Of a stretch of 26,999 bases of DNA, positions 2 through 10,811 are shown one piece after another. The DNA is taken from contig JALGZK010000027.1 of assembly GCA_025774935.1 (NCBI GenBank), positions 1 through 26,999 on the forward strand, in the 5' to 3' direction. The notes below the pieces were generated by a model. The model saw nothing but the letters and a program-made list of their open reading frames with translations, was not told where the DNA came from and ran no database searches. Source of the stretch: a bacterium (lineage in GTDB: Bacteria > Joyebacterota > Joyebacteria > Joyebacterales > Joyebacteraceae). Made by a program: the position numbers and the translations under genes. Each line of letters begins with the position of its first letter. The stretch's first letter is position 1.

Positions 2-646
2 TCCGTCACGGGGCGCTACGCCGCGCGCGAGGCCAGGAAGGCCCTCGACGCCGGGCTCCACGTGATGCTCTTCTCCGACAACGTCTCGGTCGAGGACGAG
101 GTCGCACTCAAGCGCCTCGCGCACGAGCGCGGCCTTCTCGTGATGGGACCCGACTGCGGGACGGCCATCGTGAACGGTGTCCCGCTCGCTTTCGCGAACG
201 TCGTCGATCGCGGCGAAATCGGAGTCGTGGCGGCGTCTGGTACGGGTCTTCAGGAGGTGAGCTCGATCATCTCGAGTGAAGGTGCCGGGATCTCGCAGGC
301 GCTCGGGACCGGCGGGCGCGACGTGAAGAAGGAGGTGGGCGGAATCACGTTCATCGATGCGTTGGGCGCCCTCACTGACGATCCCGAGACGAAGGTGATC
401 GTCCTTGTTTCCAAGTCGCCCGATGAGGAAGTGCTTGGGCGCGTCCGGAATGAGGTCGCGAGCATCACGAAGCCCGTTGTCGCCGTCTTGCTGGGCGCGC
501 AGATGGACGAACTCCCGGGCCCCGACGGGGTCGCTCGCTGGTCGGCTGCGACCCTCGACGAGGCTGCCTTTGCGGCTCTTGCTATCTCCGGGGGCCGAGA
601 TCCCTCCGGGGTCCGTGTTCTCCGCGGTACATTCGTGGACTCATGA
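2..646 (+). CDS. fdrA: FdrA/AllF N-terminal part (oxamate carbamoyltransferase subunit-like), truncated by window edge
   Basis: The reading frame is open from base 2, so the true start lies outside the window. The protein resembles the succinyl-CoA-synthetase-alpha-like half of FdrA. Visible family stretches are GLLVMGPDCGTAIVNGVPLA, GVVAASGTGLQEVSSIISSE and ALGTGGRDVKKEVGGITFID, followed by a Rossmann-like VIVLVSKSP segment. In E. coli, FdrA (AllF) with YlbE (AllG) and YlbF (AllH) forms oxamate carbamoyltransferase, which acts at the end of anaerobic allantoin breakdown and yields carbamoyl phosphate. Here the polypeptide stops at 646, and the part that would be the C-terminal half of a one-piece FdrA follows in another frame from an ATGA overlap (643-646). 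Family membership is clear. The substrate is inferred, because FdrA homologues also occur outside allantoin pathways. Confidence 0.88.
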   Translation, partial: SVTGRYAAREARKALDAGLHVMLFSDNVSVEDEVALKRLAHERGLLVMGPDCGTAIVNGVPLAFANVVDRGEIGVVAASGTGLQEVSSIISSEGAGISQALGTGGRDVKKEVGGITFIDALGALTDDPETKVIVLVSKSPDEEVLGRVRNEVASITKPVVAVLLGAQMDELPGPDGVARWSAATLDEAAFAALAISGGRDPSGVRVLRGTFVDS

Positions 647-1131
647 GCGGCGGGACGTTCGCCACCGAAGCCCAGGTGGTCCTCGAGGGCATGGTGCAAG
701 GCGTCTCCTCGAACGTTCCGACGGGCAGATCGACAAGGCTTGAGGATGTGCTCGCGAGCCAGGGTCACTCCATCATTGATCTCGGCTCGGACGAGTTCAC
801 GGTCGGGCGTCCACATCCCATGATCGACTACTCGATTCGCAAGCGTCGGATCGTCGAGGAGTCCGAGAACCCGGATGTCGCGGTCATCCTCCTCGACGTC
901 GTCATCGGCTACGGGTCGAACCCCGATCCGGCTGGCGAGCTCGTCGACGTGCTCACGGAGGCTGCGCAGAGAGTCACCGTCGTCTGTTCGGTCACGGGGA
1001 CCGATCAGGATCCGCAGTGCCGGCGGTCGGTCGAGAGCGACCTCGAAGCCGCAGGTGCCGTGGTCATGCCGACGAATGCCTCTGCTTCTCGCGCGGCCGG
1101 GTTCATCGCGCAGGGACTTGAGAAGACATGA
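643..1131 (+). CDS. fdrA: FdrA/AllF C-terminal part as a separate ORF
   Basis: This 162-residue protein matches the second, ligase-CoA-like half of FdrA. It starts with SGGTFATEAQ, then carries IIDLGSDEFTVGRPHPMID and VAVILLDVVIGYGSNPDPAG, and ends with SVTGTDQDPQ and a terminal helix. In one-piece FdrA proteins the SGGT segment directly follows a sequence like the end of the upstream ORF (RGTF), so nothing obvious is missing between the two parts. The start ATG overlaps the upstream stop as ATGA, which favours translational coupling. Its own stop overlaps the next start in the same way (1128-1131). It is either a natural gene fission or a frameshift in a single fdrA. The matching coupling at both junctions favours fission, but this cannot be settled from one sequence. 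Confidence 0.85.
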   Translation: MSGGTFATEAQVVLEGMVQGVSSNVPTGRSTRLEDVLASQGHSIIDLGSDEFTVGRPHPMIDYSIRKRRIVEESENPDVAVILLDVVIGYGSNPDPAGELVDVLTEAAQRVTVVCSVTGTDQDPQCRRSVESDLEAAGAVVMPTNASASRAAGFIAQGLEKT

Positions 1132-2540
1132 TGCCGATTCGTGACCTCTTCGGGAAAGAACTCAAGGTCGTGAACGTCGGGCTCTCCTCGTTCAAGGAGA
1201 GCCTCGACGAGGTCGGGGTCGAGGCGGTACAGGTCAATTGGCGGCCGCCGCTCGACGTCGATCCCGAAGCGGAAGGGCTCATCGCCGAGAAGCGCGCCGA
1301 GATCAGGCAAGCGAACGCGAAGGTCGTCGATATCATCCTCCGCGGGATGCCTCACCTCATCACGCTCGACAGGGCGGTCGACGTCATCCCAGGGATCGAG
1401 CAGAACCTCTTCCTTCACGCTGGACCGCCCATCACGTGGGACAGGATGTGTGGGCCGATGCGCGGCGCCATCATCGGCGGGCTCATCTACGAGGGGAGGG
1501 CTTCGACGCCCGAGGAAGCAGAGAGGCTCGCGGCGTCGGGCGAGATCGAGTTTGCGTCGTGCCACGAACACGAGACCGTCGGGCCGATGGCGGGTATCGT
1601 GACGCCGTCCATGCCGGTCTTCGTCCTCAGGAACGAGGAGTTCGGGAACCACGCCTACTGCACGATGAACGAGGGGCTCGGGAAGGTCCTCCGGTACGGA
1701 GCGTTCAGCGACGAGGTCATCGAGAAGCTCCGGTGGATGGCGGACGTTCTCTATCCGGCGCTCAAGGCCGCCCTCGAGAAGACCGGCCCGATCGACCTCA
1801 AGAACATCATCGCCCAGGCGCTCCACATGGGCGACGAGGTCCACAACCGGAATCGGGCTGCCACGTCGCTATTCTACAGGGCGATCGCTCCGGCAGTCGT
1901 CGAGACAGCCCCGGACAGCTCCACAGCGGCATCGGTCCTTGAGTTCATCAACGGGAACGACCACTTCTTCCTGAACCTTTCGATGCCCGCGTGCAAGGCA
2001 ACGCTCGACGCGGCGCGGAACATCCCGCTGAGCAGCGTCGTCGTGGCGATGACGCGGAACGGCACCGACTTCGGGATCCAACTTGCAGGGACGGGCGACG
2101 AGTGGTTCACTGGACCCGCCGACGTCCCGGACGCGCTCTTCTTCCCGGGCTACACGAAGGAGGACGCAAACCCCGACATCGGCGATAGCTCGATCACCGA
2201 GACGAACGGGCTCGGCGGGTTCGCCATTGCGGCTTCGCCTGCGATCGTGCAGTTCGTTGGCGGGAGCACGTCGGACGCGATCTCCTATACGAGGCAGATG
2301 TACGAGATCACCGCGGCGGAGAACAACGTCTATCAGATCCCGTACCTCGACTTCCGGGGGACGCCGACCGGGATTGACGTGATCAAGGTGGTTGAGACCG
2401 GCATCCTGCCGTTCATCGACACTGGGGTGGCGCACAGGGAGCCGGGAATCGGGCAGGTGGGAGCAGGCGTTCTTTCCGCGTCGCCCTCCCCGTTCCCCAA
2501 GGCGTACGAAGGACTCTCACGGACGGCTGAGCGCAGCTGA
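1128..2540 (+). CDS. allG: AllG/YlbE family protein (DUF1116), oxamate carbamoyltransferase subunit-like
   Basis: This 470-residue protein is the typical length for DUF1116 and looks like E. coli YlbE/AllG throughout. Recognisable blocks are LFLHAGPPITWDRMCGPMRG near residues 94-113, CHEHETVGPMAGIVTPSMPV, NHAYCTMNEGLGKVLRYGAF, MGDEVHNRN, VVAMTRNGTDFGIQLAG, ANPDIGDSSITETNGLGG and VVETGILPFIDTGVAHREPG near the C-terminus. In E. coli it is one of three subunits of oxamate carbamoyltransferase. The ATG at 1128 overlaps the stop of the FdrA C-terminal ORF (ATGA), and a second in-frame ATG lies at 1131. The third E. coli subunit, AllH/YlbF (DUF2877), is not seen downstream and could only lie upstream of the window. 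The family call is firm; the exact carbamoyl acceptor is inferred. Confidence 0.9.
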   Translation: MMPIRDLFGKELKVVNVGLSSFKESLDEVGVEAVQVNWRPPLDVDPEAEGLIAEKRAEIRQANAKVVDIILRGMPHLITLDRAVDVIPGIEQNLFLHAGPPITWDRMCGPMRGAIIGGLIYEGRASTPEEAERLAASGEIEFASCHEHETVGPMAGIVTPSMPVFVLRNEEFGNHAYCTMNEGLGKVLRYGAFSDEVIEKLRWMADVLYPALKAALEKTGPIDLKNIIAQALHMGDEVHNRNRAATSLFYRAIAPAVVETAPDSSTAASVLEFINGNDHFFLNLSMPACKATLDAARNIPLSSVVVAMTRNGTDFGIQLAGTGDEWFTGPADVPDALFFPGYTKEDANPDIGDSSITETNGLGGFAIAASPAIVQFVGGSTSDAISYTRQMYEITAAENNVYQIPYLDFRGTPTGIDVIKVVETGILPFIDTGVAHREPGIGQVGAGVLSASPSPFPKAYEGLSRTAERS

Positions 2541-2565
2541 CGAGACCTACCCACGGAGGCCACGA

Positions 2566-3384
2566 ATGACCACCACCAAGTTCCTACAACTCATGCAGTC
2601 CGCCCGCATCTACGACCTCACCCAACCCTTGAGCATCCACACGCCGCCGTGGCCGAGCTACATGCCGATGGGGCTCCAGTACTTCAAGCGGATCGCCGGG
2701 GCGCACATGGGGCAGGGCGCGAACGGGCAGATCATGACGACGAGCAACCACGTCGGAACCCACATGGACGGCGAGATCCACTTCCACGCGAGCGGCCGCG
2801 CGATCGGGCAGGTGCCCCTCGAGGAGTGGATCGGCCCGGGCGTGGTCGTCGACATCTCGGACGACGTCGAGGACTACAGCCTCTACTCGCCCGACATGAT
2901 CACGAGCCGCGTCGACGTGCAGAAGGGCGACATCCTCATCATCAACACCGGCTACCACAGGTACGCCTGGGACCAGCGGGGCTCGGACGAGATCCGCTAC
3001 TTCGTCAAGCACCCCGGGCCCGACCCCGACTTCCACAAGTGGGCGCTCAGGATGAAGCTCAAGTGGATCGGCGTCGACTGCGGGAGCGCCGACCACCCGA
3101 TGAACACGATCATCAAGGACTGGCACCCCGGGCTCTTCGCGAAGGCCGAGGCGAAGCTCAGGAAGGACTACGGCAAGAGCTGGGACGAGATGTTCCCGCC
3201 GGAGACCTACTACCAGGTGATGCATCTCAAGCTCTTCCCGAAGAAGCTCGTGCACGCCGAGAACCTGGGCGGGGAAATCGACAAGGTCTCGAACCAGCGC
3301 TGCTGGATCGGATGCTTCCCCTTGAGGGGGATTGAACTCGAGTCCTCGATGTGTAGAATCATCGCGATGCTCCCTCCGAAGTAG
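2566..3384 (+). CDS. Cyclase/kynurenine formamidase-like metal-dependent hydrolase
   Basis: This 272-residue protein belongs to the cyclase family, which includes kynurenine formamidase (KynB) and isatin hydrolase. These enzymes use a divalent-metal site to cleave an amide or open a lactam ring. The metal-binding signature HVGTHMDGEIHF is intact (His62, His66, Asp68, His72). A second block, VHAENLGG (His230, Glu232), matches the catalytic His/Glu region near the C-terminus. The start at 2566 is chosen because GGAGG at 2555-2559 precedes it by six bases; the frame is open further upstream but has no homology there. It follows allG by 25 bp and precedes the hydroxylase FAD subunit by 9 bp, so it is very probably in the same operon. 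The context suggests hydrolysis of an oxidised N-heterocycle or an amide derived from it, rather than tryptophan catabolism. The substrate is unknown. Confidence 0.85.
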   Translation: MTTTKFLQLMQSARIYDLTQPLSIHTPPWPSYMPMGLQYFKRIAGAHMGQGANGQIMTTSNHVGTHMDGEIHFHASGRAIGQVPLEEWIGPGVVVDISDDVEDYSLYSPDMITSRVDVQKGDILIINTGYHRYAWDQRGSDEIRYFVKHPGPDPDFHKWALRMKLKWIGVDCGSADHPMNTIIKDWHPGLFAKAEAKLRKDYGKSWDEMFPPETYYQVMHLKLFPKKLVHAENLGGEIDKVSNQRCWIGCFPLRGIELESSMCRIIAMLPPK

Positions 3385-3393
3385 GGGACAGGT

Positions 3394-4281
3394 ATGCCCA
3401 TCGCGCACGAGTTCGACTACGTGAAACCCGCGAGCCTCGAGGAGGCGGTCGCGATCCTCGCGGAGCGTCCGGGCGCGCAGGTCCTGGCGGGCGGCACCGA
3501 CCTCGTCGGCTGGCTCAGGGACGAGTTCGTCGAGCCGTCGGTTCTCGTTGACATCAAGGGCCTAGATGGGCTTCACGGCATCGAGTTCGCCGACGGCATC
3601 CTCTCCATCGGTTCCCTCACCACGTTCACCGAGCTCATCGAATCGGAGACCGTTAGGTCTCACGCGCCGCTCCTCTACGAGATGGGGCGCACGGTCGCGT
3701 CGACGGGCATCCGGAACCGCGCCACCGTGGTCGGGAACATCTGCTCTGCCGTGCCGTGCTGCGACGCGGGGCCGGTGCTCCTGGTGTACGATGCGATCGT
3801 CCACGCGACCGGGATCGCGGGCGCAAGGACCATCCCCATACGGGAGTGGTTTGTCGGCAACAAGCGGACGGTGCTCCCGCCGGACGAGATCGTGACCGGT
3901 GTGACGATCCGTCTCCCGATGTGTGGGCACGGCGCCGCCTACGTCAAGCTCGGACGCTACCGGGGCGAGGACCTCGCGCAGGCGAGCGTAGCCGTCGTGT
4001 CGCTTCCCGGGAACGCGTACCGCATCGCGTTCGGGGCGGTGGCGGCCACGCCAGTGCGCGCCCAGAGGATCGAGGCGGTGCTTGAGGGCAGGGAGCTCGA
4101 TCAGTCCGCGGTCGACGCGGCGAAGGGACTCGTCCCGGAAGAGACCTCGCCCATCACAGACGTCCGGGCGTCGCAGGAGTACCGGGAGCTCATGCTCCCG
4201 ATCATGCTCGAGCGGGGACTCAGGGCCGCCGTCGCGAGACGCGACGGAGAAGGCCCCGAGTACGGCACCCGGTTCATCTAG
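3394..4281 (+). CDS. Molybdenum hydroxylase FAD-binding (medium) subunit, xanthine dehydrogenase/CO dehydrogenase family
   Basis: This 295-residue protein has the usual size of a CoxM/XdhB-type subunit. It passes electrons from the 2Fe-2S subunit to NAD or another acceptor through FAD. The first FAD loop, LAGGTDLVG, lies at residues 31-39. The second flavin region is GIRNRATVVGNICSAVPCCD, close to the usual T-x-GGN-x-C block but with Val in place of the first Gly. The C-terminal CO_deh_flav_C region (YVKLGRYRGEDLAQASVAV) follows. It sits 9 bp after the cyclase gene and 8 bp before the 2Fe-2S subunit, so it is tightly coupled to both. The large subunit is not adjacent but lies at 7496-9844. 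Which heterocycle or aldehyde is oxidised cannot be read from this subunit. Confidence 0.9.
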   Translation: MPIAHEFDYVKPASLEEAVAILAERPGAQVLAGGTDLVGWLRDEFVEPSVLVDIKGLDGLHGIEFADGILSIGSLTTFTELIESETVRSHAPLLYEMGRTVASTGIRNRATVVGNICSAVPCCDAGPVLLVYDAIVHATGIAGARTIPIREWFVGNKRTVLPPDEIVTGVTIRLPMCGHGAAYVKLGRYRGEDLAQASVAVVSLPGNAYRIAFGAVAATPVRAQRIEAVLEGRELDQSAVDAAKGLVPEETSPITDVRASQEYRELMLPIMLERGLRAAVARRDGEGPEYGTRFI

Positions 4282-4289
4282 GACACGCC

Positions 4290-4757
4290 ATGAAGACGAC
4301 CATCACCCTGAATGTGAACGGCGAGGAGCGGGAGGTCGACGTCGAGCCGAGCGACACGCTCCTCGACGTCCTCCGCGCGAAGATCGGGGTCAAGAGCCCG
4401 AAGGTCGGCTGCGAGCGCGGGGACTGCGGGAGCTGCACCGTCCTCCTCGACGGGAAGAGCGTCCGGAGCTGCCTCGTCCTCGCGATCGAGGCGGACGGCC
4501 AGGGCGTCATCACGGTCGAGGGTCTCGCGAGGGACGGGGCGAACGAGCTCCAGGAGGCCTTCGTCGAGACGAACGCGTTCCAGTGCGGGTTCTGCGCGCC
4601 GGGGACCGTCCTCTCCGTGTCCGAGCTCCTCGCGAAGAACCCGAGCCCGACCGTGGAGGAGATCAAGGAGTCGATCTCCGGGAACCTCTGCCGGTGCACG
4701 GGCTACGAGCCGATCGTGGAGGCGGTGCTCACGCTGACCGGAAAGGGCACGAAGTAG
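4290..4757 (+). CDS. Molybdenum hydroxylase 2Fe-2S (small) subunit
   Basis: This 155-residue protein carries the complete eight-cysteine pattern for two 2Fe-2S clusters. The N-terminal plant-ferredoxin-like domain has Cys41, Cys46, Cys49 and Cys61 ([17 protein letters not shown]...SCL). The C-terminal four-helix domain has Cys99, Cys102, Cys134 and Cys136 (QCGFCAPG and [11 protein letters not shown]). This is the CoxS/XdhC-type electron-transfer subunit that links the molybdopterin site to the FAD subunit. It is encoded 8 bp after the FAD subunit, with 64 bp before the aquaporin start. All ligands are present, so the subunit should be functional. Confidence 0.95.
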
Positions 4758-4821
4758 GACTGGCCGAGCGCGGCCGTTCGGACGGGTGTCGACGGAGGGC
4801 GCCGGAGCAAAGGGGGGCACG

Positions 4822-5523
4822 ATGCATCTCTCGAAGCGGTTGGGCGCGGAGTTCTTCGGGACGTTCTGGCTCGTGTTCGGCGGGTGCGGGAGCGCGGTCC
4901 TGGCCGCGGGGTTCCCGAACGTCGGCATCGGGCTCCTCGGCGTGTCGCTCGCGTTCGGCCTCACCGTCCTCACGATGGCCTACGCGATCGGGCACGTCTC
5001 CGGCTGCCACCTGAACCCCGCCGTCTCGCTCGGCCTCTGGGCGGGCGGACGGTTCCCCGCGAAGGACCTCCTGCCGTACATCGTGGCGCAGGTCCTGGGC
5101 GGCATCGTCGCCGGCGGGCTCCTCTACCTCATCGCGAGCGGGTCGCCGACCTACGACATCGCCGTCAACGGACTCGCGGCGAACGGCTACGGCGCGCACT
5201 CGCCGGGCGGGTACTCGCTCGTGGCGTGCTTGGTTGCTGAGATCGTGCTCACGTTCATGTTCCTCATGATCATCCTCGGTGCGACCGACAAGCGGGCGCC
5301 GGCCGGGTTCGCACCGATCGCGATCGGGCTCGCGCTCACGCTCATTCATCTGATCTCGATTCCGGTGACGAACACGTCGGTGAACCCGGCGCGGAGTACG
5401 GGGCCCGCCATCTTCGTCGGCGGCTGGGCGATCCAGCAGCTCTGGCTCTTCTGGCTCGCGCCGATCGTGGGCGCGATCATCGCCGGGTTCGTCTACCCGC
5501 GGATCGCGGGGAAGCAGCAGTAG
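4822..5523 (+). CDS. aqpZ: Aquaporin Z
   Basis: This 233-residue inner-membrane channel is close to the 231 residues of E. coli AqpZ. Both pore motifs are present: HLNPAVS in the first half and SVNPARS in the second. The selectivity-filter block [18 protein letters not shown] is nearly the same as in AqpZ, including the His, Thr and Arg, and this predicts a water-selective channel. The start at 4822 is preferred over an in-frame GTG at 4786 because AGGGGGG at 4811-4817 is well placed and [18 protein letters not shown] is the usual N-terminus. Its base composition resembles the hydroxylase genes. Its place directly after the 2Fe-2S subunit suggests co-transcription. A role in the pathway, such as osmotic balance or passage of small neutral products, is speculation. 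Confidence 0.95.
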
Positions 5524-5551
5524 GGTGGTCCTGGGTGAGCACGTGTCGCTC

Positions 5552-5599
5552 GGCTGGCCGCCCGGACGACCAGCCATGGATGCTGGGGATTCAGCATCC
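5552..5599 (+). other. Two tandem hairpins between aqpZ and the protease gene
   Basis: The first inverted repeat pairs GGCTGG (5552-5557) with CCAGCC (5570-5575) across a 12-nt loop. The second pairs GGATGCTG (5578-5585) with CAGCATCC (5592-5599) across a 6-nt loop. They sit back to back just upstream of the AGGAGGT ribosome binding site at 5604. There is no T-run, so a classic intrinsic terminator is not supported. They could be a processing or stability element, or a boundary of inserted DNA. Confidence 0.5.
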
Positions 5600-5613
5600 G
5601 GACAGGAGGTGAG

Positions 5614-7056
5614 ATGATTAACGCTCAATCGTCACTCCGGCTCGCTCTGCTGGTTGGTCTGTTGGTCTCAATCGTCTCGATCGCCGTTGCCGAGCCCGAA
5701 GTTGCGGAAGAAACTGTGATCTTCCGCGCACTCAGAGATGGCGTGTTCACGGTCTTCACTGACCGAGGCCACGGCAGCGCGTTCCTTGTCGACGAGTCAG
5801 GTCTTCTGCTGACGAATTCCCACGTGATCGCGTCCTCGAGCCAGATTTCCGTTCAACTCGATGACACCACGCGAGTGTCGGCGGAGTTGGTGGCTGAAGA
5901 CACGTTGCTCGACATCGCCGTTCTTGCCGTGTCGCCCCAAGTCGTGAGGGGGCGACCGATCTTGACGCTGGCGACAAGAGAGGCCGGTGATTTGGCGTTC
6001 GAGGGTGAGGAAGTCATTGCCATAGGCGGTCCACTCAACCCAATGAGGATTCTCACCTCGGGGACCGTAAGCAAGGTAGAGGACCGGGCGATAATATCGG
6101 ATGTCGACATCAGCCCAGGCAACTCCGGGGGACCTCTCATCAACACGGATTCGGAGGTCATCGGTATCAACACCTTCCGAGATCCCTTGCTCGGGGGGGC
6201 AGGAGTCTCCGGGAGTCTGCCAATCAGTCTCGCCATTCCGTTCCTCGAGATGGGGAGAGGGTGGGCTCAGGGCGTTGCTCCTCCAGCCACACGACTACCC
6301 GTGGTTCCTCCGCACCCGTATCCAGCGAAGGGCCTCGAATGGGCGGGGAAGAGGAGTCACATAGAGGACAACTACGTGGTGCATGGCGTCCCGGGCTTCG
6401 AGGTGAACATCGTCACGCCACCGCGACGGCACTTCCTTGAGACGTACATCCAAGGAGCGCTTGCCGAGGAACAGCAGGATCACGAGACCGAAGTCGGCAC
6501 GGATGAGGATGAGCTGTACGATCCGCTCGGCGACGATCTCAGGGAGTGGCGCGAGTACGTCGGCGATTTCGCTCCACTGGTCGGCATCGCCGTGACTCCG
6601 AAGATTGGTGAGACCGATGCAAGCAGCTTCCTCAATCTCCTCGGTACCGCGGCCGGAGTTGCCACCGCCGTCAGCGGGCCTGTCTCCGTCTCCTTCGGCT
6701 ACGATGCGTACGAGTTCCAGGGTGACCTCCAGGACTTCAAACTGCTCGAAGACGACCGACCCGTGCAGGGGGTTTACCGAATCATGGGGACGATGCCGGT
6801 GCCCGTCGAGACTTGGTCAGACTATAAGGACGACATCGTTCACCACGGCGTCTTCCAGTATCTCCCCGAGGTCTTCGGCGCCCCGGACTCGGAGCAGCTG
6901 CATTTCCGGATCGTCGATCTGAAGAACCCGACGACGGAAATCGACGTGAAGATTCCGCGCAAGTGCCTCGAGCAGATCGCGGTCGACTTCGAGCCGTACC
7001 GCATGATGCTGGACGCGAGGAAGACCGAACTCGTCGTAGGAAGAGAGGAGCGCTGA
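5614..7056 (+). CDS. Secreted trypsin-like serine protease (S1/HtrA-type protease domain) with unknown C-terminal region
   Basis: This 480-residue protein has a signal peptide, with likely cleavage after SIAVA at residue 26. The protease domain (about 35-210) carries a full catalytic triad: His70 in LLTNSHV, Asp100 in DTLLDIAV and Ser171 in SPGNSGGPL. This matches HtrA/DegP-like chymotrypsin-fold enzymes acting in the periplasm or outside. No PDZ domain is recognised. Residues from about 215 to 480 match nothing I know. The start is well supported by AGGAGGT at 5604-5610. The gene and its downstream lipoprotein partner use less GC-rich codons than the aquaporin and hydroxylase genes around them, and they separate the hydroxylase large subunit from its partners. 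Transfer into the operon is therefore plausible. Confidence 0.85.
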   Translation: MINAQSSLRLALLVGLLVSIVSIAVAEPEVAEETVIFRALRDGVFTVFTDRGHGSAFLVDESGLLLTNSHVIASSSQISVQLDDTTRVSAELVAEDTLLDIAVLAVSPQVVRGRPILTLATREAGDLAFEGEEVIAIGGPLNPMRILTSGTVSKVEDRAIISDVDISPGNSGGPLINTDSEVIGINTFRDPLLGGAGVSGSLPISLAIPFLEMGRGWAQGVAPPATRLPVVPPHPYPAKGLEWAGKRSHIEDNYVVHGVPGFEVNIVTPPRRHFLETYIQGALAEEQQDHETEVGTDEDELYDPLGDDLREWREYVGDFAPLVGIAVTPKIGETDASSFLNLLGTAAGVATAVSGPVSVSFGYDAYEFQGDLQDFKLLEDDRPVQGVYRIMGTMPVPVETWSDYKDDIVHHGVFQYLPEVFGAPDSEQLHFRIVDLKNPTTEIDVKIPRKCLEQIAVDFEPYRMMLDARKTELVVGREER

Positions 7057-7057
7057 C

Positions 7058-7444
7058 ATGCCGTTGCGCCGCGATCTTACCTCTGCCCAGAGGAAGCCCC
7101 TCGTGCTTGCGGCCGTCGTCTCCCTTGCGTGCATTCTCTCCGGCTGCGCTACTACGTACACCTACTCGTGCCCCGGGCACAACAGCTTCGGGGATGAGAA
7201 TGTGTCGCAGTTGCACGTCGGGATGGACTCCGCCGATGTGTTCGAGATCTTCGGCCAACCTGATGAGGAACTCGATGCGAGATTCGGGGCGGATGTCGGT
7301 GACGAGTGGACCGGTCGAGTCTGGATCTACTTCATCGAGCGCGACTGGGTGTACAAGTACGCGATACGGTACAAGAAGAACGTGTTCGTGTTCTATCCAG
7401 TCGACGGGCAGCTGCTGTTGAACAACTGGGAATTCGAGTCGTAG
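7058..7444 (+). CDS. Small lipoprotein with BamE/SmpA-like region
   Basis: This 128-residue protein has a lipoprotein signal peptide ending in the lipobox LSGC (Cys30), so it should be acylated and membrane-anchored, facing the periplasm. The mature part contains LHVGMDSADVFEIFGQPDEE, which looks like the 'G-M-x3-V-x3-hG-P' block of BamE/SmpA/OmlA-type folds, followed by aromatic beta-strand-like segments (VWIYFIERDWVYKY, NVFVFYP). The start lies 1 bp after the stop of the protease, with GAGAGGAG at 7043-7050, so the two are a translation unit. Its function may be tied to the protease, for example as partner or inhibitor, but nothing in the sequence proves that. It shares the protease's lower GC. 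Confidence 0.75.
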   Translation: MPLRRDLTSAQRKPLVLAAVVSLACILSGCATTYTYSCPGHNSFGDENVSQLHVGMDSADVFEIFGQPDEELDARFGADVGDEWTGRVWIYFIERDWVYKYAIRYKKNVFVFYPVDGQLLLNNWEFES

Positions 7445-7495
7445 AGGAGACTACTCTCGCTCGTTCGCACGACGATCACTCGGACTGGACACCAC

Positions 7496-9844
7496 ATGTC
7501 TGACCTCAAGTACGTTGGCACAGACTCGACGCGCATCGATGGCCTCGAGAAGATCACGGGCGCCGCGACTTTCGTCGACGACATCGACTTCGGCCCGAAC
7601 CTCCTCCGCGCGGAGATCGTCGAGAGCCCGCACGCGCACGCGCGGATCGTCTCGATCGACACGTCTGCGGCAGAGGACGTTCCCGGCGTCGTCCGGGTCG
7701 TGACGGGGAAGGACTTCCCGTACCGGTTCGGCCTCTACATGAAGGACCGATACATCTTCGCGCAGGACCGCGTGCGGTTCGTGGGGGAGCAGGTCGCGGC
7801 CGTCGTCGCGCGTGATCCCAAGGTCGCGAAGCGCGCGGCGAAGCTCGTACACGTCGAGTACGAGGAGCTTCCCCCGATCTTCGACCCGATGGAGGCGATC
7901 GAAGGCGCTTCGTGCCTCATCCATCCCGAGTGCGAGCGCGTCCCGTGGTTCTTCCCCGAGGCCGACACGAACATCGCGCACTGCCGGAAGACCCGGAAGG
8001 GAGACGTAGAAGCCGGGTTCACCGAGGCCGACGTCGTCCTCGAGGACACCTACCGTGTCCCGCGCTACGCCCACTGCGCGATCGAGCCGCACGTCATCGT
8101 CGGGCAGCAGGACCACTCGGGCAGGCTCACGCTCTGGTCGGCGTCCCAGTCCCCGCACACCCAGAGAAACCTCTTCGCGGAGTCGCTGGCGCCCTTGGGG
8201 CTCACGCACAAGGACATCCGCGTGATTACGCCGTACGTGGGCGGCGGGTTCGGCGGGAAGGCCGGCGTCACGATGGAGATCATCGGCGCCGCGCTTGCGA
8301 CCGCGGTCAGGGGACACCCGGTCAAGCTCCGCTGGACGCGCGAGCAGGAGTTCTACAACACCTACCAGCGGCAGGGACTCGTCGCGAACCTCAAGATCGG
8401 CGCGAAGAGCGACGGGACGATTACCGCGATCGAGCACGCGCTCTACTGGGACGCGGGCGCCTACGTCGAGTACGGCGCGAACGTCGTGAACGCGGTCGGG
8501 CTCTCGGCGACGGGGCCGTACCGGATTCCGAACGTCAAGATCGACTCGTACTGCATCTACACGAACCTCCCGCCCGGGGGGCCCTACCGCGGGTTCGGTT
8601 ACTCGGAGTTCCACTTCGGGCTCGAGTCGCACATGACCCGGCTCGCGGGCATGCTCGGGATGGACGCGGTCGAGTTCCGGAAGAAGAACGCGATCCGGGA
8701 GGGCGACACGCTCGCGTACGGGGCCGAGATGAACCCGAGCGGGCTCGTCGAGGCCATCGACAAGGCGGCCGCGGCCATCGAGTGGGGGAGGCCCGAGGAG
8801 CCGCTCGTCCCCGGGAACGTTGTCGGCAAGGGGTTCGCGCTCATGTGGAAGGCGCCCGCTATGCCGCCGAACGCAGCGTCGGCCGCGTTCCTCAAGTTCA
8901 ACGAGGACGGGAGCCTGAACATCGCGGTCTCCGGAATGGAGATCGGGCAGGGCTATCTAACGGCCATGGCGCAGATCGCGGCGGAGGTCCTGACGGTCCC
9001 CGTCGAGAAGATCCGCGTGGAGACGCCCGACACCGACCGGAACCCGTACGAGTGGCAGAACGTGGGGTCGCATGTGACGTGGGGCTGCGGGAACGCGGTC
9101 AAGCTCGCGGCCGAGGAGGCGCGGGAGAAGATCTTCGCGCTCGTCCGCCGCGCCCACAACGCCTGCGAGAAGGAGGACATGCTCTACCTCGAGGACGAGA
9201 AGGTGAAGTGCCGGGACAACCTCGAGTTCGAGTTGCCGCTACGTGACTTCGTAATCTCGGGCATCCAGATGGAGGATGGGACGTTCCGGGGCGGGCCGAT
9301 CATGGGGACCGGCATGTTCATGCCGGAGTTCACCTCCGCGCTCTCCGACCCCGAGACGAGCCAGGGCGGGCACCCGAACGTGCACTACACGGTGGGCGCC
9401 GCGGGCATCGTCCTCGAGATCGACCCTGCGACGGGGAAGATGCGCGTCCGGAAGACGGCCCTTGCCGTCGATGTCGGGAAGGCGATCAACCCCGACCTCG
9501 TGAACGCTCAGATCGTGGGCGGCATGGTCCAGGGCCTCGCGACCGTGCTCTACGAGGACATGCGGTTCGACGACAAGGGCCGCATGCTGAACCCGAACTT
9601 CACCGACTACAAGATCCCCACCGCGATGGACGTCCCCGACGAGATCGTCCCGATTATCGTCGAGGTCCCCCAGCCCGACGGCCCGTTCGGCGCGCGGGGC
9701 GTGGGGGAGCACACCATGATCCCCGCCGCGCCCATGGTCGCCAACGCCGTCGAGGACGCGCTCGGGCTCCGCATCACCGAGATGCCGGTGACGGCGGAGC
9801 GGGTGGCGTTGGCAGCTCAACGGCTCCGGGAATCACCTTCGTAG
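7496..9844 (+). CDS. Molybdenum hydroxylase molybdopterin-binding large subunit (xanthine dehydrogenase family)
   Basis: This 782-residue protein has the usual size of a stand-alone XdhA/CoxL-type subunit. The N-terminal aldehyde-oxidase a/b-hammerhead domain begins with RIDGLEKITGAATFVDDI. Molybdopterin-site motifs are VGGGFGGK (248-255), PYRGFGYSE (363-371) and GARGVGEHTMIP, whose Glu738 matches the catalytic glutamate of xanthine oxidase. The loop PYRGFG resembles the FRGFG of purine hydroxylases (Arg365) and not the AYRCSFR loop of CO dehydrogenase. A CO dehydrogenase is therefore unlikely and an N-heterocycle or aldehyde substrate is favoured. The start at 7496 has no strong ribosome binding site. 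Its electron-transfer subunits lie at 3394-4757, apart from it by the aquaporin and the protease/lipoprotein pair. No XdhC-type cofactor chaperone is visible. Confidence 0.92.
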   Translation: MSDLKYVGTDSTRIDGLEKITGAATFVDDIDFGPNLLRAEIVESPHAHARIVSIDTSAAEDVPGVVRVVTGKDFPYRFGLYMKDRYIFAQDRVRFVGEQVAAVVARDPKVAKRAAKLVHVEYEELPPIFDPMEAIEGASCLIHPECERVPWFFPEADTNIAHCRKTRKGDVEAGFTEADVVLEDTYRVPRYAHCAIEPHVIVGQQDHSGRLTLWSASQSPHTQRNLFAESLAPLGLTHKDIRVITPYVGGGFGGKAGVTMEIIGAALATAVRGHPVKLRWTREQEFYNTYQRQGLVANLKIGAKSDGTITAIEHALYWDAGAYVEYGANVVNAVGLSATGPYRIPNVKIDSYCIYTNLPPGGPYRGFGYSEFHFGLESHMTRLAGMLGMDAVEFRKKNAIREGDTLAYGAEMNPSGLVEAIDKAAAAIEWGRPEEPLVPGNVVGKGFALMWKAPAMPPNAASAAFLKFNEDGSLNIAVSGMEIGQGYLTAMAQIAAEVLTVPVEKIRVETPDTDRNPYEWQNVGSHVTWGCGNAVKLAAEEAREKIFALVRRAHNACEKEDMLYLEDEKVKCRDNLEFELPLRDFVISGIQMEDGTFRGGPIMGTGMFMPEFTSALSDPETSQGGHPNVHYTVGAAGIVLEIDPATGKMRVRKTALAVDVGKAINPDLVNAQIVGGMVQGLATVLYEDMRFDDKGRMLNPNFTDYKIPTAMDVPDEIVPIIVEVPQPDGPFGARGVGEHTMIPAAPMVANAVEDALGLRITEMPVTAERVALAAQRLRESPS

Positions 9845-9887: not shown

Positions 9888-10811
9888 ATGCAGATCACCG
9901 TCGCAGGCGCCACAGGTCTCATAGGGCGCGCGCTGATCACGGCGCTTCGGAACCGCGGCGACGAACTCATCGTCCTCTCGCGGGATCCCGGGCGGGTGCC
10001 GGAGTGGATGTCGGGTGTCACCGTGCTCGGGTGGCGCCCGGTTCTCGAGAGACCCCCGGCAGAGGCTCTGGAGGGCGTCGACGCAGTGGTGAACCTCGCC
10101 GGGGCCCCTATCTTTCCGGGCCGCTGGACCGAATCCCGCATGCGCACGATCCGCGAGTCGCGCGTCGCCGGGAACCGCAATCTGGCGGAGGCCATCGCAG
10201 AACTCGACAGGCCGCCCAGGACCTCGGTTGTCGGGTCCGCCGTGGGCTACTACGGATCTCGGGGTGAGGAGGAGCTCGTGGAAGAGGCGCCTCCTGGCTC
10301 AGACTTCCTGGCTGGTGTCTGTCGCGATCTCGAGGAGGAGGCTCAGGCGGCCACACGGGCGGGCGTACGGGTCGTCAGGCTTCGCACCGGCATCGTGATG
10401 GCACCGTCGGGCGGGGCGCTCGAGCAGATTCTGCCTCTGTTCAGAGCCGGCCTGGGCGGGCGGCTGGGATCCGGACGGCAGTGGTTCTCGTGGATCCACA
10501 TCTCGGATATGGTGCGCGTCATCCTGCGCGCTCTTGATGACGACGGAATAGAAGGGCCTGTGAACGCGACCGCGCCGCATCCCGTGCGGAACGTCGAGTT
10601 CGCGAAGGCCCTGGGAAAGGCCCTGCGGCGTCCCGCGATCATGTGGGTTCCGGCCTCGCTTCTCCGGGTCGCTCTGGGGAAGACGGCTTCCGTGATCCTC
10701 TCCAGTCAACGGGTAGTGCCCGTGAAGCTCAGTCGGGCCGGTCACGAGTTCGATTTCGGGGACATCCAACGCGCTCTTGTAGACTGCGTCTCCGACAGCC
10801 GTGCTGCGTAG
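9888..10811 (+). CDS. TIGR01777/YfcH-type SDR epimerase
   Basis: This 307-residue extended short-chain dehydrogenase/reductase-like protein has the nucleotide-binding motif GATGLIGRAL at residues 6-15. It also carries the TIGR01777 hallmarks: VNLAGAPIFPGRWTESRMRTIRESRV, SAVGYYGSRG (the YYG active-site region), VRLRTGIVM and a C-terminal DUF1731-like segment (MWVPASLLRVALGKTASVILSSQRVVP). Relatives are often annotated as NAD-dependent epimerases or cell-division inhibitor SulA-like, but their substrate is mostly unknown. It follows the hydroxylase by 43 bp, so co-transcription with it is possible. The same family is widespread as a lone housekeeping gene, so no pathway link is claimed. Confidence 0.88.
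   Translation: MQITVAGATGLIGRALITALRNRGDELIVLSRDPGRVPEWMSGVTVLGWRPVLERPPAEALEGVDAVVNLAGAPIFPGRWTESRMRTIRESRVAGNRNLAEAIAELDRPPRTSVVGSAVGYYGSRGEEELVEEAPPGSDFLAGVCRDLEEEAQAATRAGVRVVRLRTGIVMAPSGGALEQILPLFRAGLGGRLGSGRQWFSWIHISDMVRVILRALDDDGIEGPVNATAPHPVRNVEFAKALGKALRRPAIMWVPASLLRVALGKTASVILSSQRVVPVKLSRAGHEFDFGDIQRALVDCVSDSRAA

Follow-up and report, generated by a model that had tools for sequence, protein, structure and literature searches.

In the anaerobic allantoin pathway of Escherichia coli (AllFGH with AllK), the three-subunit carbamoyltransferase AllFGH interconverts oxamate plus carbamoyl phosphate and oxalurate plus inorganic phosphate (PMC11326118); in nitrifiers, allFGH sits in a different context, linked to biuret and triuret (PMC12625717). 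Classical oxidative pyrimidine metabolism, called rare and known from a few bacteria, leads from uracil through barbiturate and ureidomalonate to malonate and urea, with barbiturase and ureidomalonase as its enzymes (PMC3758960). The reductive uric acid pathway of E. coli and Clostridioides difficile involves a molybdenum hydroxylase homologue and ring-opening hydrolases and, in E. coli, also makes carbamoyl phosphate by phosphorolysis of a ureide (PMC12507026). Here, we describe a gene cluster of a bacterium of the family Joyebacteraceae (GenBank assembly GCA_025774935.1), found in a stretch of 26,999 nucleotides (contig JALGZK010000027.1, positions 1 to 26,999; hereafter ‘the window’), in which homologues of AllFGH are encoded together with a cyclase-family hydrolase and a molybdenum hydroxylase. 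Judged from its sequence, the cluster probably encodes an oxidative, energy-conserving (phosphorolytic) catabolism of uracil.

The window corresponds to contig C7 in a genome of 3.24 Mb and 40 contigs. The last 114 bases of contig C35 are identical to the first 114 of the window, and the fdrA frame is continuous across this join, which supplies the N-terminus of FdrA and adds, upstream, genes for AllH and for DUF35, thiolase-like, and GNAT-fold proteins. The latter three lay beyond the window and hence outside the view of the preliminary description, which had been made from the window's sequence alone. The genes are as follows (L003 positions are on contig C35, all others in the window; ORF, open reading frame).

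L003:10421-11170, same strand as fdrA: GNAT-fold protein (upstream, from the contig join)
L003:11173-12348, same strand as fdrA: thiolase-like protein (upstream, from the contig join)
L003:12352-12699, same strand as fdrA: Zn-ribbon/OB protein of the DUF35/ChsH2 type (upstream, from the contig join)
L003:12710-13549, same strand as fdrA: AllH (PF11392), directly upstream of fdrA
L003:13592 (contig C35) to window 646 (window part 2..646), + strand: FdrA (AllF) N-terminal and CoA-binding-like domains, 335 amino acids in total
643..1131, + strand: FdrA Ligase_CoA domain as its own ORF (PF00549; 42% identity to E. coli AllF 338-479)
1128..2540, + strand: AllG (DUF1116) with an N-terminal extension (PF06545, E 1e-102; 46% identity to E. 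coli AllG)
2566..3384, + strand: cyclase-family (kynurenine-formamidase-like) metal hydrolase (PF04199)
3394..4281, + strand: molybdenum hydroxylase FAD subunit (PF00941, PF03450)
4290..4757, + strand: molybdenum hydroxylase 2Fe-2S subunit (PF00111, PF01799)
4786..7444, + strand: insertion with aquaporin Z, HtrA-like protease, and a short lipoprotein-like ORF, outside the conserved cluster
7496..9844, + strand: Mo-binding large subunit, proposed uracil dehydrogenase (domain matches and motif alignment)

From the GNAT gene through the 2Fe-2S gene, the genes form a co-directional run with gaps of -4 to 42 bp, which suggests an operon-like arrangement; between fdrA and the 2Fe-2S gene, neighbouring genes are -4 to +25 bp apart, bearing out the very short distances first reported, and the large subunit does come further down, past three unrelated genes. 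Because the joined sequence is one co-directional run, a separate transcript for fdrA and allG is not suggested. Upstream extension, which had been proposed as a search for AllH and a carbamate kinase, gave AllH, with fdrA and allG in the same run; the carbamate kinase gene is elsewhere in the genome. Promoter and terminator scans gave no signal clearly over chance.

A scan of genome contigs yielded at least 550 confirmed relatives, of which 80 loci were kept; counts of loci below refer to these, many of which end early at contig edges. They come from Eisenbacteria, Cloacimonadota, Elusimicrobia, Verrucomicrobia/Kiritimatiellae/Lentisphaerae, Chlorobiota/Ignavibacteria, Bdellovibrionales, Spirochaetes, Anaerolineae (Chloroflexi), Thermotogaceae, Caldiserica, and Clostridia, the carriers including Oceanirhabdus sp. 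W0125-5, Clostridium sp. CF012, and Anaerotruncus massiliensis. The cyclase gene is present in 62 of the 80 loci, any hydroxylase subunit in 53, and both in 48; all 62 AllG-cyclase pairs share a strand, with a median gap of 30 bp. Pairwise distances between loci correlate for AllG, cyclase, the three hydroxylase subunits, FdrA, and AllH (r 0.64-0.92). AllG is encoded in 14 of 20 genomes of the family and in 4 of 41 sampled from other families, and it sits in the same cluster wherever contig extent allows, the association being seen in all four of the latter; three genomes of the own family (G001, G003, and G007; 97-100% complete) jointly lack AllG, the cyclase, and the cluster-type Mo subunit. 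The association of AllFGH, cyclase, and hydroxylase is far beyond chance, and this core (AllFGH, cyclase, and FAD, 2Fe-2S, and Mo subunits) is kept across many unrelated, mostly uncultured bacterial lineages. The preliminary description had made such conservation its own test, and the neighbourhood proves strongly conserved across phyla. The three unrelated genes inside the run in this genus might suggest a loose gathering of catabolic genes without a common pathway; this is most improbable, being contradicted by the order and strand kept in many phyla, the co-absence in complete family genomes, and the correlated divergence.

The AllFGH homologues are encoded together in the order AllH-FdrA-AllG, and the FdrA stretches match model NF004760. 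Identity to the E. coli proteins is 41% for FdrA (both ORFs; 43% for the N-terminal ORF against AllF 1-316), 46% for AllG, and 33% for the C-terminal domain of AllH. As in E. coli, the trio is complete, with all subunits homologous and a carbamate kinase in the genome; unlike in E. coli, no allantoin genes were read, no carbamate kinase is linked, and the trio is joined to a cyclase and a molybdenum hydroxylase. A further difference lies in the 45-residue tail at the C-terminus of E. coli AllF, which has its homologue in the N-terminal extension of the cluster AllG (the tail of the solved FdrA structure 3dmy has the same homology, weakly), a transfer expected of proteins working in one complex. 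The AllG model matches 3clq (Z 62) as its sole fold match, and because 3clq is an uncharacterised structure, the fold gave no mechanism.

With identities of 41-46% to the oxalurate enzyme of E. coli, AllF and AllG could instead serve a C2 ureide entering the oxamate branch: a hydantoin-type compound would be converted to parabanate, the cyclase would open this to oxalurate, and AllFGH would release oxamate and carbamoyl phosphate. A linked CoA-transferase representative also scores best with CoA:oxalate CoA-transferase, under its cut-off. We nevertheless consider this route unlikely, as the linked permeases are uracil-permease-like, the linked amidases are malonamidase-like, and no oxalyl-CoA decarboxylase is found among the identified recurrent neighbours. 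The lack of genes of the known allantoin route, none of which had been in view for the preliminary description either, counts against it too: the genes read in the joined 41 kb include none for allantoin or ureidoglycolate, and those read in the window start and in C35:10000-24066, to which the search was confined, include none for allantoinase, allantoate, or ureidoglycolate enzymes.

The proposed uracil catabolism would instead begin with conversion of uracil to barbiturate (C6 hydroxylation) by the FAD/2Fe-2S/Mo hydroxylase. The cyclase would then open barbiturate to ureidomalonate (3-oxo-3-ureidopropanoate), replacing the unrelated AtzD-type barbiturase, and FdrA, AllG, and AllH, by homology to the E. 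coli conversion of oxalurate to oxamate, would phosphorolyse ureidomalonate to malonamate and carbamoyl phosphate, the probable substrate being one CH2 longer than oxalurate. Carbamate kinase, whose gene is present but unlinked, would form ATP from carbamoyl phosphate. Malonamate would pass, here, to a module of GNAT, Cys-less thiolase, and DUF35 proteins and, in other lineages, to interchangeable modules: malonamidase-like amidase with CaiB/BaiF CoA-transferase, nitrilase, or isochorismatase. The sequence from uracil through barbiturate and ureidomalonate to malonamate, a malonamidase substrate, would account for both the core genes and the interchangeable amidases. The general scheme put forward at first (oxidation of an N-heterocycle, hydrolysis of the product, and phosphorolysis of a carbamoylated intermediate) thereby fits, its chemistry being predicted; the possibly new heterocycle gives way to uracil, via barbiturate, as the probable substrate, on the strength of UraA-like permeases and malonamidase-like amidases.

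The first two proposed intermediates are those of the classical oxidative pathway. Unlike in that pathway, a cyclase-family metal hydrolase rather than an AtzD-type barbiturase would open the ring, phosphorolysis to carbamoyl phosphate and malonamate would replace hydrolysis to urea and malonate, and the cluster occurs mainly in lineages known as anaerobic. The reductive uric acid pathway differs in using YgeW (of the ornithine carbamoyltransferase family), YgfK, SsnA, YgeY, and YgeX, none of which is in the cluster core. In a literature search that covered mostly open-access papers, nothing was found that describes the cluster or ties AllFGH to pyrimidines (uracil, barbiturate) or malonamate. 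Most likely, the cluster degrades uracil by a previously undescribed route that has no assigned genes and could yield ATP.

It is gene context that points to uracil as the substrate of the hydroxylase and to barbiturate as that of the hydrolase. The latter belongs to the cyclase family, with a PF04199 match over the Pfam cut-off and the metal motif HxGTHxDxxxHF (H62xGTH66xD68xxxH72F), which had been reported as intact and is invariant in 10 aligned proteins; no Pfam match to the AtzD/barbiturase family is found among cluster proteins or identified recurrent neighbours. The hydroxylase has the FAD, two [2Fe-2S], and molybdenum cofactor domains and the catalytic Glu of the xanthine oxidase superfamily, this Glu being invariant in all 38 cluster enzymes and the substrate Arg kept.

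Placement near xanthine dehydrogenases by NCBIfam, below cut-off, might speak for a purine route, in which the hydroxylase would act on xanthine, hypoxanthine, or urate and the cyclase and AllFGH on a purine-derived ureide; nearby PucR regulators (7/80 loci) and the YgeX-like and HyuA-like genes in the Clostridium sp. CF012 locus (L117) would agree with it. Against the XdhA models, however, the Mo subunit falls well short (498 bits with a cut-off of 780, and 468 with 916), and one of two further molybdenum hydroxylases in the genome is far nearer to them (700 bits). In 37 of the 38 cluster Mo subunits, GGGFGGK is followed by Ala, whereas E. coli XdhA has Gln (after GGGFGNK); SsnA, YgfK, YgeY, and YgeW homologues occur in none of the 80 loci, and the transporter motif is of the uracil type. 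Together, these observations make a purine route quite unlikely. Maturation genes for molybdenum hydroxylases are linked in 2/80 loci; in Clostridium sp. CF012 (L117:148-5542), the cluster adjoins MocA-like and YqeB-like maturation genes and the said genes of uric acid pathways.

Among linked genes, NCS2 permeases (17/80 loci) and amidases (13/80) are informative as to substrate. The best solved relative of a representative permease is UraA (1e-70, versus 3e-9 for a uric acid-xanthine permease), every readable motif of the linked transporters is the ENxG of UraA and not the QNxG of XanQ, and the permease of the Clostridium sp. CF012 cluster is 53% identical to E. coli UraA. The closest solved relative of a representative amidase is malonamidase E2 (7e-55), in an alignment that spans the catalytic region and with it an Arg that follows the catalytic Ser by three residues; all linked amidases with a readable motif retain this Arg. 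In malonamidase, this Arg has a role in malonamate binding. Because UraA-like permeases, malonamidase-like amidases, and a Mo subunit unlike XdhA agree, uracil is favoured. Classical oxidative pyrimidine metabolism takes both uracil and thymine, and the same pathway acting on thymine or 5-substituted pyrimidines, to give methylmalonamate, would involve identical chemistry; with malonamidase-like linked amidases and no methylmalonyl-CoA mutase among the identified recurrent neighbours, we regard this variant as improbable. A candidate uracil permease of the present genome was set aside: the one PF00860 match over the cut-off has an AzgA-like start sequence and matches no NCBIfam model, and there is one weak match besides.

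The thiolase-bearing module (GNAT/thiolase/DUF35) occurs in 19 loci and amidase/CaiB in 16, never together; likewise, thiolase and nitrilase (10 loci) never co-occur. Ignoring relatedness, the hypergeometric probability of zero overlap is p = 0.008 for thiolase against amidase/CaiB and 7e-5 against all alternatives. The thiolase-like protein is evidently no active thiolase of the usual kind: all six aligned cluster proteins have ENGPASG, with Pro in place of the nucleophilic Cys that the solved thiolase 7yvy has in its CASG motif. A thiolase fold partnered by DUF35 can belong to an aldolase or an acylase instead of a thiolase, and the Ltp2/Sal-DUF35 steroid side-chain aldolases likewise pair a thiolase fold, with an altered thiolase active site, with a DUF35 Zn-ribbon/OB protein (PMC12329534). 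Unlike these, the cluster lacks hydratase and steroid genes and has a GNAT-fold partner. The fold of the latter (GNAT249) comes from structure prediction (pLDDT 86, Z 14) and indicates no specific function; malonyl-CoA decarboxylase was considered, and no such entry is among the matches listed. A divergent GNAT249 subfamily (~38% identical) is found without thiolase and DUF35 genes in L088, L090, L092, L098, and L036 (Thermotogaceae, Caldiserica, and G032), so that some lineages may use the GNAT protein on its own.

That carbamoyl phosphate could yield ATP if a carbamate kinase existed had been suggested at the outset, and the genome does encode one, over the curated cut-off, beside adenine deaminase and two carbamoyltransferases and unlinked to the cluster. 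Carbamate kinase is found in 13 of 14 cluster-bearing genomes tested (4/4 of those from other families) versus 2 of 14 controls, and in the single-contig, 3.3-Mb genome G031 its gene (C1:2729794-2730723) lies ~16 kb downstream of the cluster. In the present genome, the carbamate kinase gene shares one run (L131:4461-9305, on contig C2 of G000) with the genes for adenine deaminase and two divergent carbamoyltransferases, both under curated cut-offs for known transcarbamylases; this run is possibly a second catabolic cluster that forms carbamoyl phosphate.

Several points weigh against the uracil reading. The substrate of AllFGH is not readable from sequence, and the distance correlations in part reflect species phylogeny. 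Most linked permeases have Asp at the position of UraA His245, and two of the permeases resemble XanQ about as closely as UraA; no TIGR00801-type permease is found in this genome or the family members tested, which leaves uptake in this genome unexplained. None of the 80 loci has a linked carbamate kinase gene, and because family genomes without the cluster also carry one, the enzyme supports feasibility and not a specific link. Module exclusivity may track lineages, and the handling of malonamate by the GNAT/thiolase/DUF35 module is the weakest part of the model.

We put forward more tentatively, as a proposition we would not quite expect to hold in all its parts, that the cluster represents a widespread, previously unassigned anaerobic uracil pathway, comprising a molybdenum hydroxylase gene for the long-known uracil dehydrogenase activity, a new class of barbiturate-opening enzyme, energy conservation of the AllFGH type, and new chemistry of Cys-less thiolase, DUF35, and GNAT proteins on the C3 product. 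If true, a second, energy-conserving oxidative route for uracil would be widespread in anaerobic and candidate phyla that recycle the RNA of dead cells in sediments, candidates would emerge for the uracil dehydrogenase gene and for a new barbiturate hydrolase, and three-subunit AllFGH chemistry would reach beyond allantoin.

The aquaporin/HtrA/lipoprotein block is absent from L035, L036, and L040, where the 2Fe-2S and Mo genes are adjacent, and other members of the family lack it too; since the 2Fe-2S and Mo genes can adjoin in relatives, the block has been inserted here. It recurs in a congener contig (L138), syntenic and at 93.5% nucleotide identity, and is therefore no misassembly. FdrA is a single ORF of ~512 amino acids in relatives, whereas it is encoded here by two ORFs with an ATGA overlap; the relatives' proteins have a linker of ~30 residues where the two ORFs split. 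The whole cluster is flanked by two TIGR01777-family SDR genes (L003:9304-10266 and window 9888-10811), 71% identical and in the same orientation. In the two congeners and two family genomes searched, no match was found; the cluster and a duplicated flank may have been acquired or relocated together.

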